Below, piece by piece: positions 8,467-38,670 of a DNA stretch of 39,490 nucleotides. The first letter of the stretch is position 1; each line of letters starts with the position of its first letter. The notes below the pieces were generated by a model. It did no database searches and had not been told where the DNA came from. It saw nothing but the letters and a program-made list of their open reading frames with translations. The DNA comes from a virus, in the IMG/VR virus record IMGVR_UViG_3300023184_000270, positions 1-39,490 of that record, one strand, 5' to 3'. The translations under genes were made by a program, and so were the position numbers.

Positions 8467-9042
8467 TTATATAAATAAATCTTCCCAATAATCACAAACC
8501 CAAGATGTAGTAATGGTGTATATTGATGGATTCTCATAATCAAGTTCCATAGAATTTATTGCTTCAGAAATGAAGCATGAAGGGATTCTAATTCTTCTAA
8601 ATACATCACCATGTTTATTAAAGATTGATATAGAAATAGAACCAACGTAATCGTTCTTTATACCCATTGCTCCAGTAAGAGGATTATATATTAAATCCGA
8701 CCATTGTCTAAGTATCTTATAAACAGTCATGGAATTAGAATCATTTAGATTCACCTCAAATTCCATAGTTAATGTCATGTCACTGGTTGAAGGCTCGCCA
8801 CCAGCATATCTTCTGGTTGCAAATTTATAATGCTGATCTACGGCTGCATTAGGAGCAATATCAACATTAAGTCCAGTTATTGATTTAACCTGTTGGGCTA
8901 ATATACTTTCACCATGGAAAGAAGTATTTGCAGCAACTATTGCAGAAGGAGGATTTATAATAACCTCAAACTGATTAAGATAAACAGGTTCAAAGTTTTT
9001 TATACCTGCTCTAGAGTTTGTAAAATGTGGTAATCCAGCCAT
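8467..9042 (-). CDS. Tail tube protein, second copy (gp19-like)
   Basis: 191 residues against 163 for T4 gp19. It is a clear paralogue of the preceding 184-residue protein: same start (MAGL.H..NS), the same FEPVYLNQFEV strand, RRYAGG/KRNYAGA region, the shared block RQWSDLIYNPLTGAMG, then GDVFRRI and the ending DYWEDLFI. Tube proteins polymerise as hexameric rings inside the contractile sheath. It differs most in the middle and near the C terminus, where it lacks the Cys pair of the first copy. Two non-identical tube proteins could mean a mixed tube or a specialised ring at one end. It ends the operon at a strong terminator. Confidence 0.85.
   Translation of the reverse strand: MAGLPHFTNSRAGIKNFEPVYLNQFEVIINPPSAIVAANTSFHGESILAQQVKSITGLNVDIAPNAAVDQHYKFATRRYAGGEPSTSDMTLTMEFEVNLNDSNSMTVYKILRQWSDLIYNPLTGAMGIKNDYVGSISISIFNKHGDVFRRIRIPSCFISEAINSMELDYENPSIYTITTSWVCDYWEDLFI
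8641..8709. repeat. Near-identical block shared by the two tube genes, copy 2
   Basis: 69 bp that differ from 9234-9302 at only three positions, much closer than the rest of the two genes. It codes for the RQWSDLIYNPL...DYVG segment. Confidence 0.8.
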
Positions 9043-9056
9043 TTATAATAATTATT

Positions 9057-9611
9057 TTATATGAATAAATCTTCCCAGTAATCAACCGCCCAAGGGAAAG
9101 CATCTATTTTATAGATCTCGGTAGATGTATAGTTTAAATTCATTGGGCTCAAAGCTTTAAGAGGAAAACAATCTTTACATGTTATTCTTCTGAAAACATC
9201 ACCATGTTTATTAAAAATAGAAACCACTATTGTACCAACATAATCATTCTTTATACCCATCGCTCCAGTAAGAGGATTATATATTAAATCCGACCATTGT
9301 CTCAATGTTTTGAAGACATACATAGAATTTTGATCATTAAGATTGACACTAAAACTAAGACTAAGGTCCATATAGGTTTGCTCAGGTTTAGCTCCTGCAT
9401 AATTCCTTTTAGCGAATTTAAACTTCTGGCTTACTGTGCCTGGATTTTTATCAAGTGCAAGTCCACCAACCTTAGTAACATGCTGCAATAATATTGGTCC
9501 ACCAGCAATAGCGGATGGAGGTATAATAGTAACTTCAAACTGGTTTAGATAAACTGGTTCAAATTTATTTATAGATGATAGCGAATTCTGATAATGTGAT
9601 AAGCCGGCCAT
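9057..9611 (-). CDS. Tail tube protein, first copy (gp19-like)
   Basis: 184 residues. It follows the sheath gene, the classic gp18-gp19 order. Family features: FEPVYLNQFEV near residue 17, the YAGAKPEQ loop, RQWSDLIYNPLTG and a final DYWEDLFI. It forms the inner tube of the tail through which DNA passes. It is separated from its paralogue by 14 bases and from the sheath gene by 33, so all three are probably made together. No Shine-Dalgarno sequence; the leader is AATAAATATAATTAACT. Compared with copy two it has a short loop around residue 40 and two extra cysteines near residues 148-151. Confidence 0.88.
   Translation of the reverse strand: MAGLSHYQNSLSSINKFEPVYLNQFEVTIIPPSAIAGGPILLQHVTKVGGLALDKNPGTVSQKFKFAKRNYAGAKPEQTYMDLSLSFSVNLNDQNSMYVFKTLRQWSDLIYNPLTGAMGIKNDYVGTIVVSIFNKHGDVFRRITCKDCFPLKALSPMNLNYTSTEIYKIDAFPWAVDYWEDLFI
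9234..9302. repeat. Near-identical block shared by the two tube genes, copy 1
   Basis: Partner of 8641-8709: 66 of 69 bases identical by direct comparison. Confidence 0.8.
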
Positions 9612-32619: not shown

Positions 32620-32910
32620 TTAATAAGGGTTATTTTTTATTTTATACCATTTTTTACTGGCGGTGCTCTTTTTTGTTTCCGTAAATTCTCCGGATTCAAC
32701 CATTTGTTTCACCAAATCACCGTGTTTTGTGGTTTCCCATGAGGATCCAAACACGGAATTGAAAGTTTGGTGTGAAAATTCACCATTAGGTCTTTTATCT
32801 TTAAAAAGAAATAAACTTAGCTCATATATGATATCCTCCTTCGTTGGATACGCAGGCATAGTTTTCCAAAGACCTAATATGTATTTGAATTTTATCTTGT
32901 CCTTATTCAT
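32620..32910 (-). CDS. Small hypothetical protein between uvsX and helicase
   Basis: 96 residues, starting inside the last codons of uvsX (8-base overlap) and ending 10 bases before the helicase gene. It looks like a compact helical domain with a basic C terminus (KKSTASKKWYKIKNNPY) and a KHGDLVKQMVESGEF segment, possibly a winged-helix-like fold. It occupies the position of T4 gene 40 (114 residues), but no sequence similarity is evident. Function unknown. Confidence 0.6.
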   Translation of the reverse strand: MNKDKIKFKYILGLWKTMPAYPTKEDIIYELSLFLFKDKRPNGEFSHQTFNSVFGSSWETTKHGDLVKQMVESGEFTETKKSTASKKWYKIKNNPY

Positions 32911-34108
32911 CGTCCTCTTCAGAGTCAGTGTCCAATACTACACCCTCCTCGTCAAGTGTACTAAGTAACTCGTCATGATCGGGTAGATCAGGAAATTTGA
33001 ATTTGTCCTGAATTACATTCTTATCAAGTTGTTCAAGAACCTCTTGGGTAAAAACTTTATCAGTAAATAACTCGGTAGAAGCAACAGTTTTACCAAGGTG
33101 TCTAACACCCCATCTTGTTGATGATGCAGACGGCTTGAATACAGATTCTTTCTTACCCTCAGCATTTTTAACTTCCTCAAATTTACCTCTCTCCACACCA
33201 CAAGATTCCCAAGAAACGTAGTCTTGTAAACCAACATATGGATTCATACCATTTGCAAATGAGATGTGAAATTTAACAGGCTCAGGAATTGTGAATCTGC
33301 TTTTCTTAAGCGTTGATGTAACAACTATACCAGTTTTTGTACCTGCACCATCCTTTAATTGAGCCTTAGACAAGAATGCAACAACTGACATAGCAAATAT
33401 AGGTCCGTCACCACCAGAACTTTCTTTGGTTGGAATATAAGCTCCACCACCAGCATAAACGTGATTTGTACAAATTAAAGGGATTTTAGCAGCGGTAAGA
33501 TCCAATGTTATAACTCTGAATAACTTTCTAAGCTCTTTTGCTTTAGCACCCATATCGGAAGCGTTATGTCCTTTAAGAGCATCAGCAAGCTCCTTGTCAG
33601 TGCTTAACATACCGAGTGAATCAAGGACTATAAGTATTTTTGGTTGCTGTCCAGCAGATTTAGCTTTATTGACAAGTTCCATAAGATTGGAAACAAATGT
33701 TTGGAATTGTGAAACTGTCTTTATTGGTTGATATCTGATCTTATCTGTATCTATACCAAATTTCAATGCCCCTGATTTATCAATAGCACCCTCGCTGTCG
33801 CAATAAATAACATCATAACCAATTTTTTGAGCTTCTCTAACGACATTAAGACAGAAGAAAGATTTACCTGTACCTGGATCTCCCATCACGCCAAATGATC
33901 TATTATTAGGTACTCCACCAAATAGAGTTCCGGATATTTGTGCATTTAATAAAAAGTTCCCAGTAGGAATCCATTCATCAACTTCACTGAATGTGTTTGT
34001 TGTAAGTATCGAACCTGTTTCAAATCCACTTATCTTGGAAAGTGATTTATCAAGATCCAAGAATGAGAATCCTGAGGTTGATTTTGTTGCTGTTGTTGTT
34101 TTAGCCAT
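32903..34108 (-). CDS. uvsX: UvsX-type recombinase (RecA family)
   Basis: 401 residues (T4 UvsX: 391). RecA core with Walker A GDPGTGKS (76-83), a YDVIYCDSEGAID segment, Walker-B-like ILIVLDSLG, and a TNHVYAGGG loop; the acidic tail ends DTDSEEDDE as in UvsX. It assembles on single-stranded DNA for strand exchange and recombination-dependent replication. A late-type box is 14-22 nt upstream. A 317-base gap before it contains one copy of the large repeat. Confidence 0.93.
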   Translation of the reverse strand: MAKTTTATKSTSGFSFLDLDKSLSKISGFETGSILTTNTFSEVDEWIPTGNFLLNAQISGTLFGGVPNNRSFGVMGDPGTGKSFFCLNVVREAQKIGYDVIYCDSEGAIDKSGALKFGIDTDKIRYQPIKTVSQFQTFVSNLMELVNKAKSAGQQPKILIVLDSLGMLSTDKELADALKGHNASDMGAKAKELRKLFRVITLDLTAAKIPLICTNHVYAGGGAYIPTKESSGGDGPIFAMSVVAFLSKAQLKDGAGTKTGIVVTSTLKKSRFTIPEPVKFHISFANGMNPYVGLQDYVSWESCGVERGKFEEVKNAEGKKESVFKPSASSTRWGVRHLGKTVASTELFTDKVFTQEVLEQLDKNVIQDKFKFPDLPDHDELLSTLDEEGVVLDTDSEEDDE

Positions 34109-34425: not shown

Positions 34426-35334
34426 TTATTTATTGAGGATCATTTTCTTTATTTCTTCCCTGTGTATATTTATCTTTCCTGCATCGTTATAAAGATCACG
34501 CATGGCATCATTCGAGTTACCATATGTTTTACCCGTTACTGCACCAATAGTTTGTATTGCCTTCATTGTTGGTGCTTCGTCTTCCTTGCCGTATTCGCCA
34601 GTAGCTTTGGTTTCAATTCCAATTTTATTCAATCTTGCTCTAAATTCTTTAACTGACTCAGCTTTGCTAATAAATTCTTCCCTTTCCTGTTCAGATTCAC
34701 CTTCAGCTGGTGTAGAAAATGCACCTTTGAATCTTTTTATTTGGCTGTCTATTTCTGTAGATTCGATTTTCCCTTTGAGTTTGCTTAGATCAGTTAGCTC
34801 GGAAATTACCTTATCACCCTGAGCTACTAATTCCAATCCTCTGCTGAGATACTCTGAGTTTGTCGCCATTTCTCTGTTAGCTCCAAGATACTCATCCTTC
34901 CATTTGTTTAATGCACCATCAGGTCTGATGATTATATTATATTGCTTCTGTATGTCCTCTAGATTTTGTTGTCTAGTTTTACTGGTCATATCTCCATTTA
35001 CACCATTTTCTATGATTAGCTTAAGTCTGGAATATGCATTCTTTATGAAATCAACAATTTCGCTTGCAGAGCTTCTGCATTCTGTCGCATCTTTTGGATC
35101 CGCACCATTTATCACATTATCAACTTCCGATGCTAGCCCTATTATAACGTCCATAAGCATTTCTGCGGTGTGTAATTCAGCTGGAACATCCGGATCTGCC
35201 TTTTCTTTTCCAGCCAATATTGTGCCATCCAGAGCTCCGTCTCCTATTCCGGAAACAAACTCCTTTGCTCTTCTAGTCCATCCCCAAAATCCGCTTACTT
35301 TAGGTTCGTTCTTTTTACCTTCTTGTTCAGGCAT
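34426..35334 (-). CDS. Hypothetical helical protein of the candidate internal-protein operon
   Basis: 302 residues, mostly helical and charged. It begins MPEQEGKKNEPKVSGFWGW and lacks the N-terminal module of the two genes before it. Residues 45-210 are heptad-like. The C-terminal about 60 residues (MKAIQTIGAVTGKTYGNSNDAM) vaguely recall the peptidoglycan-binding-like part of the first operon gene, but the match is weak. The start is one base after the previous stop. Function unknown. Confidence 0.6.
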   Translation of the reverse strand: MPEQEGKKNEPKVSGFWGWTRRAKEFVSGIGDGALDGTILAGKEKADPDVPAELHTAEMLMDVIIGLASEVDNVINGADPKDATECRSSASEIVDFIKNAYSRLKLIIENGVNGDMTSKTRQQNLEDIQKQYNIIIRPDGALNKWKDEYLGANREMATNSEYLSRGLELVAQGDKVISELTDLSKLKGKIESTEIDSQIKRFKGAFSTPAEGESEQEREEFISKAESVKEFRARLNKIGIETKATGEYGKEDEAPTMKAIQTIGAVTGKTYGNSNDAMRDLYNDAGKINIHREEIKKMILNK

Positions 35335-35335
35335 C

Positions 35336-36118
35336 TTATCTTATGTTTTTTAATGATTGTGTTAATGCTTTTAGATAGCTTCTATTTTTATCAGCAGCAT
35401 CCTCCTCAGTATCCATATGCTCAAGTTCTATCATAGCTCCCTGTGTGAATGCGTTAACTGCAGCTTGAAAATATTTAGCAGCCTTCATTTTTTCGTTATA
35501 CACAAGAATATTTGATTTGTCCAATTGATCCTCGTATGCCTGTTTAAGCAAGCTTCTCTGTTTTGTGTAATATTCATCATCAGGATACTCTGAGCCTTCG
35601 CCGAAGCTACTTCTTTTAATTTCGTCATGCGATATTGTTTTCGTTATATCTCCCCTAGATTTTGCTCCGTTTTTCCTCTCTTCTGCCTCTTGTCTAAGTG
35701 CATCTAATTGACCTATGTATGCATCCAGTATATTTTTACCGTCAGCATCAGTTATCTCGTGACTTTTTCCCTCCGTGTAAATTTGATTAGCAAGATCTCT
35801 TAGTCCTTCCCAATATTTTTTATTATTTGCGAATGATGGATTTTCTGCGTCTAGTGCATCTCTCAGACTTTTAAGTCCGCTGTTTGAAATATTTATCGAA
35901 TTACAATAAGCTCCTAAATAAAGACCCATTTTTGTTATTACGCTAACAGCTTCTTTACCGAATTTAATGCAATTGCTAGCTGCTGTTTTACCAGTATCTT
36001 TTGTTTTAATCTCCATATTATCCTTGTATTTAATACCTGACTTGGATGGAGTATTTTGCTCCTCCCCGTCATACTCGAATATAGCAGAATTAAATTTATC
36101 GAAGTTTAATACTTTCAT
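35336..36118 (-). CDS. Candidate internal head protein with capsid-targeting-like N terminus
   Basis: 260 residues. It begins MKVLNFDKFNSAIFE, matching the form of the next gene upstream (VLKFSDFNKLFE), and ends in I-F-E, the (I/L)xE cleavage consensus of the T4 prohead protease gp21. T4 internal proteins have such a short targeting sequence that is removed in the prohead, after which they are injected with the DNA. The remainder is helical and charged with no recognised domain. Two bases separate it from the preceding gene. Confidence 0.6.
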   Translation of the reverse strand: MKVLNFDKFNSAIFEYDGEEQNTPSKSGIKYKDNMEIKTKDTGKTAASNCIKFGKEAVSVITKMGLYLGAYCNSINISNSGLKSLRDALDAENPSFANNKKYWEGLRDLANQIYTEGKSHEITDADGKNILDAYIGQLDALRQEAEERKNGAKSRGDITKTISHDEIKRSSFGEGSEYPDDEYYTKQRSLLKQAYEDQLDKSNILVYNEKMKAAKYFQAAVNAFTQGAMIELEHMDTEEDAADKNRSYLKALTQSLKNIR

Positions 36119-36120
36119 GA

Positions 36121-37551
36121 TTATTTAGATACGATCAGATCTTTTAATTTGTCTTTGTTTGCTTTGAAGTTAACTACTGCTTTTCTTAATTCAGGAGTTA
36201 ATTTTTTACCATCCTCTGTTGCTTTTATTAAATCAACACCTGTTAATCTAGTTAGCATAACTGCAAGTTCCTTAACAGCTTTTTCTGTATTGGCCCCGTA
36301 TCCCCCGTCTGCTTTTACAGCAGCACTTGGGAATATGTCATTATATTGTGTTTGGAATTCCTGAATAGCTTTGTAATTTTCTCCGCTCTTTTTAAGATTT
36401 TGCTCATTACCTTTAACTGTACCAGAAACGATTTCTTTGAAATCTGTGCTGTCCTTAGCAGCTTTGTCCTTATCGGCTTTTTCTTTATCCTCTTTTTCTT
36501 TGTCAGCTTTAGCTTTTTCTTCTGCAGCTTTTTTCAATGCAGCTTCCTGTGCCTTTGCATCATCAGCTTTTATTTTATCATTAAGTGCTTGTATGCTTTT
36601 TGCTGCATCATCCATTGCATTCTTAACATTCTGATCAATCTCAAGTTTTTTAGTACCAGATGTCACAGCTGCCATAAGTTTATTTTTTAAATCCTCTATT
36701 TTTGCTGGGTATCCTGCAAGCTCTTCCTTTCTTTCCTTTCTCTTCATATCTTCCCATTCCTTAGTGTTTTTAAGGTGCTCGATTTCTTTAGTGGCTTCTG
36801 CAGAAATTTTAGATGTTTCGGATTTAAGGAAATCTGATGTGCTGTCCTTGAATTGATCCGCTGTAGCTACCACACCATTCTGTAATTGATTAGCGTAATC
36901 TGTTCTTTGTTCAACCCAAGTTTGTTTATCAAATAAACCCTCGTTAAGAGCAGCTAGATTGTCACCATATTTAAGAGAAGTACTTACATTTTCAACTTTA
37001 GGCTTAGCAGCTTCAACCTTAGCAGCATCAGCTTTAGCGGCTGTTGCATTAGCAATTAATTGTTTGATGAATCCAGTAACTTGTAATTGAACAGCAGATT
37101 TTATACCGTCCTCTGATTTTTTACCGTCAGGAGTTGCTATTAATGTATTATAAGCCTTCTGTAAACTTGCTGCTGCTGATTTACCATCCGCAGAAATATC
37201 AGAATACTCAGGTTTTAATTTACTACCAAGTACTTTATTTATCAGTTCATTAAGTTTATCACCTATCTTTGTAACATCCTTTTCGTTATTGATGCTTTGT
37301 AAATCATCTATACCGTCTTTGTATCCTCCGTCAACCTTATTAGCAATTGTTGTGAACAATTGGAAGAAAGTAACCACAATTACATCTGCTGTTTGTGTTG
37401 ATTTATTTGGTTTAAGATCAGCAGGTTCTGCTGGTTTTGCATCCGCTGCTGGTGCTGCTGGAGTTCCCGCTGCTGGTGCTGCTGCCGGAGCTGGTGTATC
37501 AACTTCGAATAATTTGTTAAAGTCTGAAAACTTTAGTACTCTATCTTTCAT
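36121..37551 (-). CDS. Candidate internal head protein with peptidoglycan-binding-like domain
   Basis: 476 residues. N terminus MKDRVLKFSDFNKLFE followed by VDTPAPAAAP: the LFE tripeptide is a possible gp21-type cleavage site at residue 16. An Ala/Pro linker (17-50) follows, then helices, a Lys/Ala/Glu-rich coiled coil around 320-370, and a C-terminal domain near 390-430 with AIQEFQTQYND, then VKADGGYGANTEKAVKEL, which matches the PG_binding_1 pattern. The protein could be packaged in the head and meet the host wall on injection. It heads a three-gene operon behind a terminator and a late-type box. Confidence 0.6.
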   Translation of the reverse strand: MKDRVLKFSDFNKLFEVDTPAPAAAPAAGTPAAPAADAKPAEPADLKPNKSTQTADVIVVTFFQLFTTIANKVDGGYKDGIDDLQSINNEKDVTKIGDKLNELINKVLGSKLKPEYSDISADGKSAAASLQKAYNTLIATPDGKKSEDGIKSAVQLQVTGFIKQLIANATAAKADAAKVEAAKPKVENVSTSLKYGDNLAALNEGLFDKQTWVEQRTDYANQLQNGVVATADQFKDSTSDFLKSETSKISAEATKEIEHLKNTKEWEDMKRKERKEELAGYPAKIEDLKNKLMAAVTSGTKKLEIDQNVKNAMDDAAKSIQALNDKIKADDAKAQEAALKKAAEEKAKADKEKEDKEKADKDKAAKDSTDFKEIVSGTVKGNEQNLKKSGENYKAIQEFQTQYNDIFPSAAVKADGGYGANTEKAVKELAVMLTRLTGVDLIKATEDGKKLTPELRKAVVNFKANKDKLKDLIVSK

Positions 37552-37622: not shown

Positions 37623-37687
37623 TAACGAGTAGTAAACTGCTCATTAACGCGGATTTAGTGAGATAGTGAGTAGTTTACTACTCGTTA
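37623..37687. repeat. Long hairpin at the end of gmd
   Basis: Arms 37623-37646 and 37664-37687 pair over 24 positions: 16 perfect bp (TAACGAGTAGTAAACT with its complement), then eight more with two G-T pairs, around a 17-base loop. In the plus-sense RNA the two odd positions are G-U pairs; in the minus-sense RNA they are C-A mismatches. It covers the last codons and TAG stop of gmd and lies next to the terminator. Confidence 0.8.
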
Positions 37688-38670
37688 CTAGAATAATATT
37701 CTATCCAATGTGAAATCATCTCATCCAGCATAGTTTCAAAAGTGTATTTAGGTGTCCATCCTGTTTCATTTCTCAACTTTGACGAATCCCCCTTAAGATC
37801 TTCAAGTTCCTCGGGTCTCATAAATTTTTCATCACTCGAAACATACTGTGTCCAATCCATTCCAAGCTTACCAAATACATACTGAATCAATTCAAGTACT
37901 GAATGTGAGACACCAGTAGAACAAACATAATCACCAGATTCTTCTTTCTGTAGCATCATCCACATTGCTTCAATGTAATCTTTTGCGTGGCCCCAGTCTC
38001 TCGTCGCATTTAGATTGCCTAAGACGAGTTCTTTCTCCATACCTAGCTTAATCCTTACCGCTGACTTTACGACCTTGTTAGTGACAAAATTTGTGCCTCT
38101 ACGGGGTGATTCGTGATTGAATAAGATACCGTTGCTTATGAACATACCATATGAGTTGCGATAGTTCCTGCATATGTTATACGAGAAAACTTTAGCGCAT
38201 CCATATGGACTAACTGGATTAAGTGGGGTTGTCTCTCTTTGGTAACCGTCAGGATCAATTGAATTACCGAACATTTCCGATGATGATGCCTGGTACATCT
38301 TTATTGATGGATCATATATTCTTATTGCTTCCAGAAGATTCAAAGTTCCCATCCCAGTTGCTTGTGCTGTGTATACCGGTTGATCGAATGATATTCTTAC
38401 GTGTGATTGTGCTGCAAGATTATAAACTTCGGATGGGTTTGATTTTTTTAGAGCATGTAACAACGAAGGCACATCGAGTAGATCAGCATAGATTAGGTTA
38501 TCTTTAATCTTATCATAGATTGAATCCAATCTAGCGGTTTGATTTTCTGATACTGAATTTCTTTTTATCGTTCCATATACTTCATATCCCTTATTGATTA
38601 GAAACTCTGCAAGATAACTTCCGTCCTGTCCATTTATGCCTGTTATCAATGCTCTTTTAACTTCTTTCAT
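37678..38670 (-). CDS. gmd: GDP-mannose 4,6-dehydratase
   Basis: 330 residues, typical length. Short-chain dehydrogenase fold: NADP-binding GINGQDG (11-17), YNLAAQSHV (83-91), the SSSE catalytic region (129-132), and YGCAK (Tyr156, Lys160). Substrate-loop segments NHESPRRGTNFVT and ATRDWGHAKDY are those of GMD. It converts GDP-D-mannose to GDP-4-keto-6-deoxy-D-mannose, the substrate of the fucose synthase upstream. A GTATATC box about 30 nt before its start lies in the edge of repeat copy B. The product may be used for a glycan on virion, host surface or DNA; the acceptor is unknown. Confidence 0.93.
   Translation of the reverse strand: MKEVKRALITGINGQDGSYLAEFLINKGYEVYGTIKRNSVSENQTARLDSIYDKIKDNLIYADLLDVPSLLHALKKSNPSEVYNLAAQSHVRISFDQPVYTAQATGMGTLNLLEAIRIYDPSIKMYQASSSEMFGNSIDPDGYQRETTPLNPVSPYGCAKVFSYNICRNYRNSYGMFISNGILFNHESPRRGTNFVTNKVVKSAVRIKLGMEKELVLGNLNATRDWGHAKDYIEAMWMMLQKEESGDYVCSTGVSHSVLELIQYVFGKLGMDWTQYVSSDEKFMRPEELEDLKGDSSKLRNETGWTPKYTFETMLDEMISHWIEYYSSNE

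Follow-up and report, generated by a model that had tools for sequence, protein, structure and literature searches.

Predicted T4-type capsid targeting tags on two adjacent phage proteins and on many proteins of giant relatives

Two adjacent genes on the same strand of a viral DNA stretch, IMG/VR record IMGVR_UViG_3300023184_000270, encode proteins, here called A and B, which begin with a common short motif resembling the capsid targeting sequence (CTS) of the internal proteins (IPs) of phage T4. The whole stretch that was analysed, a fragment of 39,490 bases, is referred to as the window. Based on sequence comparisons, we consider it very likely that A and B are head-core precursors with a T4-type CTS, which are docked in the scaffold, cut by a protease and kept in the head together with the DNA; the T4-type CTS processing of both proteins is well supported. 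The window content (UvsX, a DnaB-type helicase, a gp46/47-like nuclease, a terminase and a sheath protein of 1123 aa) marks a T4-like contractile-tailed phage, and the nearest sheath proteins are those of Flavobacterium phage MaF61 and of uncultured or Lak megaphages. The protease locus lies outside the window.

The N-terminal tags of A and B

The N terminus of A reads MKDRVLKFSDFNKLFE↓VDTPAP and that of B MKVLNFDKFNSAIFE↓YDGEEQ (arrows mark predicted cuts), which gives predicted propeptides of 16 and 15 residues. Both proteins have VLxFxxFN followed by (I/L)FE, with a spacer of two residues in A and three in B, and the glutamate is residue 16 in A and residue 15 in B. No relationship between the bodies of A and B was detectable by blastp. 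The 37 window proteins were scored with a model of two motif blocks and a spacer, which was trained only on giant-phage N termini and included no T4 sequences. A ranked first (8.8) and B second (5.4), and the next protein scored 0.6; with training on genomes G001 and G002 only, the scores were 12.7, 8.9 and 3.7, respectively. When the N terminus of A was shuffled 20,000 times, its tag outscored 19,990 of the shuffled versions, and the remaining 10 reached its score. The preliminary description of this DNA had pointed out two adjacent, otherwise dissimilar proteins with a shared N-terminal motif ending in (I/L)FE within 16 residues, and this was confirmed by the open reading frames (ORFs), the motif ranks and the blastp comparison.

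Searches for direct homologs of A or B by tblastn gave no match in 50,697 phage records and none in IMG/VR, and neither protein matched PHROGs or, above the cut-off, Pfam. Relatives were reached via UvsX (75-89% identical), and several of them are 348-482 kb long. In an alignment of 16 A homologs, which were 17-36% identical to the A of the window, the P1 glutamate E16 was the sole invariant column and F8 was conserved in more than 90%. Most of the 13 B orthologs carry a strong tag, for example MEISNFSEFLLE, MKILSFSDYLFE and MEIINFSDFLFE, the last being the spacer-free form present in some B homologs; the ortholog in L012 has no tag.

The known system to which these tags were compared comprises the T4 internal head proteins IPI, IPII and IPIII and their CTS (Mullaney and Black, 1996; reviewed in PMC9026906). 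When the 267 T4 ORFs were ranked with the two-block model, IpII came first, IpIII second and IpI fourth. Split training, on G005 and G009 only or on G001 and G002 only, left IpII and IpIII at the top and IpI fourth in both cases. This was the second model design; the first, a single ungapped position-specific scoring matrix of 14 columns, missed the T4 IPs, as its geometry demanded four residues ahead of the first aromatic, and it was replaced. Mutagenesis of the T4 CTS showed that residues 4 and 7 are needed for targeting and residues 8 and 10 for processing (PMC9026906), and the best columns of the model (aromatic, aromatic, I/L and E) coincide with these residues. Like A and B, IPI-III have a short N-terminal tag, aromatics at the two targeting positions, an (I/L)xE cut site and unrelated bodies; in IPI, as in A and B, a spacer separates FxxF from the cut site, which is ITE in IPI. 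The spacer is 2-3 residues in A and B, compared to none in IPIII and 9 in IPI. Unlike the T4 IPs, A and B are larger, all-helical and kept in relatives, and their bodies are unrelated to those of the T4 IPs. Third in the T4 ranking was gp61.1 (AF158101 18966-19130, locus L129), which starts with MKTFKEFIKED and is a candidate for an unrecognised tagged protein.

Tags, protease and scaffold repeats in giant relatives

Tagged N termini were counted with a regular expression on ORF N termini, and the expectation from internal start codons was used as control. Because genes were called simply as longest ORFs, the counts include some false positives, the number of which is estimated by this control. 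The 482-kb relative had 50 tagged N termini versus 4.1 expected, the 430-kb relative 32 versus 3.0, the 373-kb relative 26 versus 2.2 and the 262-kb relative 20 versus 1.7, while MaF61, which has a different scaffold, showed no excess (1 versus 1.4 expected). The preliminary description had suggested a search of the rest of the genome for the same N-terminal module; these giant relatives have 20-50 such N termini each, above the control, and in the window the next-best of the 37 proteins after A and B reached 0.6. Three or four proteins are tagged in T4, compared to tens per genome in the giant relatives.

The commonest tag form in the 482-kb genome is MKHIKLFExFLNE. Among 106 tagged proteins that were compared, the bodies were unrelated and only M1 and the glutamate were near-invariant. 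The information per position was ∼2-4 bits through the glutamate, including several columns not fixed by the regular expression, 0.8 bits directly after it and ∼0.3 bits beyond; the two aromatic columns of the giant-phage set held 3.4 and 3.7 bits. Identical residues were encoded by the same codon about equally often in the tag (0.50) and in the body (0.45), so that the tag signal is one at the protein level. The exact degenerate DNA pattern of the tag was found in 33 stretches in IMG/VR viral contigs, and a search of 84,980 cellular genomes gave no match. When phages were queried with a 27-aa tag, only two records matched, the 735-kb genomes. In LR756501, an uncultured phage of 735 kb, 11 tags were counted in 150 kb versus 1.4 in the control, and in LR745206, an uncultured phage of 635 kb, the count was a marginal 3 versus 1.4 in 50 kb. 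LR756501 also contains four tandem genes for ∼350-aa proteins (L181:11904-16169) with tag-like N termini and similar sequence thereafter, near the protease-scaffold and other predicted head genes.

The Pfam family Peptidase_S77, that of T4 gp21, was found over the cut-off in 8 of 10 relatives, and the best PDB match of the relatives' protease was T4 gp21 (5jbl), a weak match with an E of 0.016. The relatives' protease ORF has ∼650-720 aa and consists of the protease domain followed by 10-13 tandem 14-residue repeats, each with the tag core motif (YSEYLAE), whereas T4 gp21 has 212 residues and no repeat array. No other ORF of the 430-kb relative contains as many as three internal copies of the motif. 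LR756501 and LR745206 also carry the repeat array; the protease-scaffold of MaF61 has LNE-type sites and no FxxF. The gp23-type capsid proteins of eight relatives have the sequence YCHYHSLNE↓S closing the N-terminal region. The cut site of T4 gp23, which we take to be FGSFLTE↓A, fits the tag core motif and matches these capsid sites. The T4 gp23 propeptide has 65 residues (PMC5694885).

Because the repeats of the protease ORF carry the tag core motif, we propose that the tag corresponds to one scaffold-repeat unit. Alternatively, the tag may be a longer motif that the protease recognises; against this, FxxF is absent from the N termini of T4 gp22, gp24, gp67 and gp68. The recovery of the T4 IPs, the coincidence with the CTS residues, the protease and major capsid protein sites of the relatives, the invariant P1 glutamate and the drop in information after it all support a T4-type CTS with a gp21-type (I/L)xE site, as the preliminary description had suggested for A and B.

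Protein bodies, conserved locus and neighbouring genes

In the AlphaFold2 (AF2) models, residues 1-42 of A (pLDDT 75) and residues 1-40 of B (pLDDT 69) were disordered and the bodies were all-alpha. Fold searches against the PDB gave nothing at E ≤ 1e-3 for either protein. Likeness to F-BAR domains and alpha-pore toxins was rejected, as the TM scores were at most 0.26 and the matches generic helical ones, and so was Ntox50 in B (E 0.018, under the Pfam cut-off). The C-terminal part of A resembles peptidoglycan (PG)-binding domains: PG_binding_1 was significant in the homolog of L018 (2.9e-8) and weak in that of L007 (E 0.077), and viral fold matches were the PG-binding proteins A0A8S5PXV9 (prob 0.99, rmsd 2.7 over 88 columns, E 1.2) and A0A6J5MXS7 (prob 0.94, E above 1). 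The PG-binding-like domain is common to A and the neighbouring protein C (blastp 3e-4). Besides the enzyme-like proteins listed in Table 1, the tagged proteins of the relatives include a PG_binding_1 protein and further SLT transglycosylases. An ADP-ribosyltransferase-like reading of proteins with LYHGN or LYHTS (L056, L084 and L102) had no Pfam support and was rejected.

Close relatives keep the genes in the order epimerase - A - B - (C) - uvsX. C is separate, fused to B or missing; L018 has additional genes in the block, and L021 has one additional tagged gene. The preliminary description had placed A and B in a transferable cassette, which is contradicted by this constant position beside uvsX, mostly with the nucleotide-sugar epimerase as neighbour; the block does not behave like the accessory genes of a variable effector cassette at a mobile or hypervariable place. 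B and C form one protein in L011:7776-9800, L012:8095-9798 and L013:7457-9256 (blastp 6.7e-46 to 1e-7). In two of the three fusions the junction reads RILE↓DFGGFL or RLVE↓DFGGFL, so that (I/V)xE precedes the DFGGFL start of C, and C homologs of three relatives have the site I(I/V)NE↓SFGSWL. A second putative site lies in the middle of A, where [ILVFM]xE occurs at the same place in 15 of 16 homologs, compared to 20% of random 13-mers from the same proteins; as the A homologs are not independent, this site is suggestive only. The window also encodes an adjacent, related pair of tail-tube-like proteins (8467-9042 and 9057-9611).

Table 1. Location of the features discussed, in window coordinates or, where an L number is given, in loci of relatives.
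Feature	Location	Strand	Basis
Protein A, 476 aa; predicted tagged internal head protein with tag, disordered Ala/Pro-rich linker, all-helical body and PG-binding-like C-terminal domain	36121..37551	-	ORF, homolog alignment, AF2
Capsid-targeting-like tag of A, residues 1-16; F8 and F11 at targeting positions; L14-F15-E16 cut site, predicted cut E16↓V17	37504..37551	-	
Second conserved (I/L/F)xE site of A, L202-N203-E204; predicted cut before G205	36940..36948	-	
PG-binding-like C-terminal domain of A, residues 390-470 (approximate bounds)	36142..36384	-	Pfam in homologs, fold matches
Protein B, 260 aa; predicted tagged internal head protein, all-helical	35336..36118	-	ORF; 13 homologs or positional counterparts aligned; AF2
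Capsid-targeting-like tag of B, residues 1-15; F6 and F9; I13-F14-E15, predicted cut E15↓Y16	36074..36118	-	
Protein C, 302 aa; third member of the conserved A-B-C-uvsX block	34426..35334	-	Alignment
UvsX recombinase; anchors the syntenic block	32903..34108	-	phrog_97, E 1.5e-57
Nucleotide-sugar epimerase/dehydratase, upstream of A; adjoins the block in most relatives too	37678..38670	-	phrog_540, E 7.7e-80
gp21-family protease with 10-14 tandem 14-residue repeats with [FY]xx[FY][ILV]xE	L041-L048 (eight relatives); L181:23913-26336; L184:18546-20669		
Tagged proteins of relatives with enzyme-like domains: adenylate kinase; RimK ATP-grasp; L,D-transpeptidase/Tlde1-like; SLT transglycosylase	L078:2406-3035; L068:8163-9641; L059:9604-10410; L049:18779-19501		As listed

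Interpretation of the tags

In the mechanism that we propose, each precursor would dock into the scaffold core during prohead assembly through its two FxxF aromatics, F8 and F11 in A and F6 and F9 in B. This core would contain a gp21-family protease fused to the 10-13 tandem copies of the tag motif. The activated protease would then cut after the glutamate of (L/I)FE, that is between E16 and V17 in A and between E15 and Y16 in B, and A would probably also be cut between E204 and G205. Once mature, A and B would be retained in the head alongside the DNA, and at infection they would most likely exit with it. The sequences show the tag, its position and conservation, the match to the T4 IPs and, in relatives, the protease and the fitting capsid sites; docking, cleavage and packaging in this phage are deduced from the comparison with T4 and the relatives, and ejection, an action of A and C at the peptidoglycan and an effector function are speculative.

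Several observations weigh against this mechanism. The window itself contains no protease, scaffold or major capsid protein. The tag of B is weak when taken alone, since 811 of 20,000 shuffles reach its score and it beats only ∼96% of them; it was accepted because most B orthologs carry the strong form. The window copy of C is without the (I/L)xE present in relatives (MPEQEGKKNEPKVSGFWGW). T4 Alt, which is also processed by gp21, does not fit the tag model (rank 166 of 267). G009 (L114-L126) has a tag excess, yet no S77 protease or scaffold repeats were found in the sequence examined. Finally, the training N termini were picked by regular expression and the fixed columns of the model are therefore partly circular, which does not apply to the tests on T4, on MaF61 and with split training. 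The only match to a major capsid protein in G009 is short and has an internal TAA, and may be a fragment or reflect a different code.

Within the head-protein interpretation, the role of A and B could be of two kinds. They may, together with C, be prohead core or scaffold proteins or ejection (pilot) proteins that serve assembly or DNA delivery, with FxxF...(I/L)xE as the signal for docking and removal and with no part in host takeover; the case for this is about evenly balanced. It is favoured by the conserved synteny, the helical bodies, the extra cut sites in A, the B-C fusion with a cut site at its junction and the occurrence of the motif throughout the scaffold portion of the protease ORF. 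A role in the periplasm during DNA delivery would be in keeping with the PG-binding-like C-terminal domains of A and C. However, A and B lie beside uvsX and ∼50 kb from the head genes near the protease and the major capsid protein (in G001 coordinates), and scaffold proteins are usually degraded completely, whereas A and B have few sites. The second possibility, which is in line with the injected effectors of the preliminary description and which we regard as rather unlikely, is that both proteins are effectors dedicated to host takeover or anti-defence, which the tag would bring into the head and which would then be injected, as are T4 IPI and Alt. Their tag is of the same type as that of T4 IPI-III, which are injected (PMC9391042; PMC9026906), and other tagged proteins of the relatives look enzymatic. 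Against this, neither an enzymatic domain nor a fold match was found for A or B, both of which are long and all-alpha and stay at one locus in close relatives; A has an internal processing site, and the T4 IPs are variable and dispensable. Because A and B are all-alpha, lack a fold match and have a fixed locus, and because A has a second (I/L)xE, a core or internal structural role fits them at least as well as injection. A function as structural core or ejection proteins seems somewhat more likely than one as dedicated effectors.

A signal unrelated to heads, for sorting or stability (a membrane helix, phage-nucleus import or a degron), or a by-product of AT-rich translation starts would agree with a motif that is short and N-terminal. 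Such an origin is highly improbable, as synonymous codons vary freely, the information ends at the glutamate, MaF61 has no excess, the T4 IPs are recovered and the same core recurs in the T4 gp23 site and the giant-phage protease-scaffold. Chance likeness of two N termini in one operon, to which the 4% of shuffles reaching the score of B might point, is refuted by the homologs, as orthologs in nearly every genome keep the motif.

Head maturation in phiKZ and SPN3US is similar in that many inner-head or ejection proteins have N-terminal propeptides removed by a protease (PMC5694885; PMC10052503). The SPN3US propeptides mostly exceed 100 residues (PMC5694885), unlike the tags described here, which have 10-20 residues and a T4-like motif.

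For a broad group of giant T4-like phages, including LR756501, we tentatively suggest, as a reading that falls a little short of probable, that the tag is one repeat of the protease-scaffold. Dozens of unrelated proteins, among them cell-wall, metabolic and modifying enzymes, would then be packed by scaffold mimicry, cut free and delivered to the host. No description of a genome-wide tag or of an identity between tag and scaffold was found in the open-access literature, including a search for tandem-repeat scaffolds, which does not in itself prove novelty. For most giant-phage proteins no function is known. With a readable tag, the sequence alone would suffice to predict which proteins are carried in the virion and probably reach the host; under the strict motif these would number ∼25-50 per genome. 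A tag that equals a scaffold repeat also offers a testable answer to how a sequence as short as the 10-residue CTS of T4 locates the prohead; scaffold mimicry, if true, would account for how the T4 CTS works. Such tags could serve for loading proteins into phage heads.
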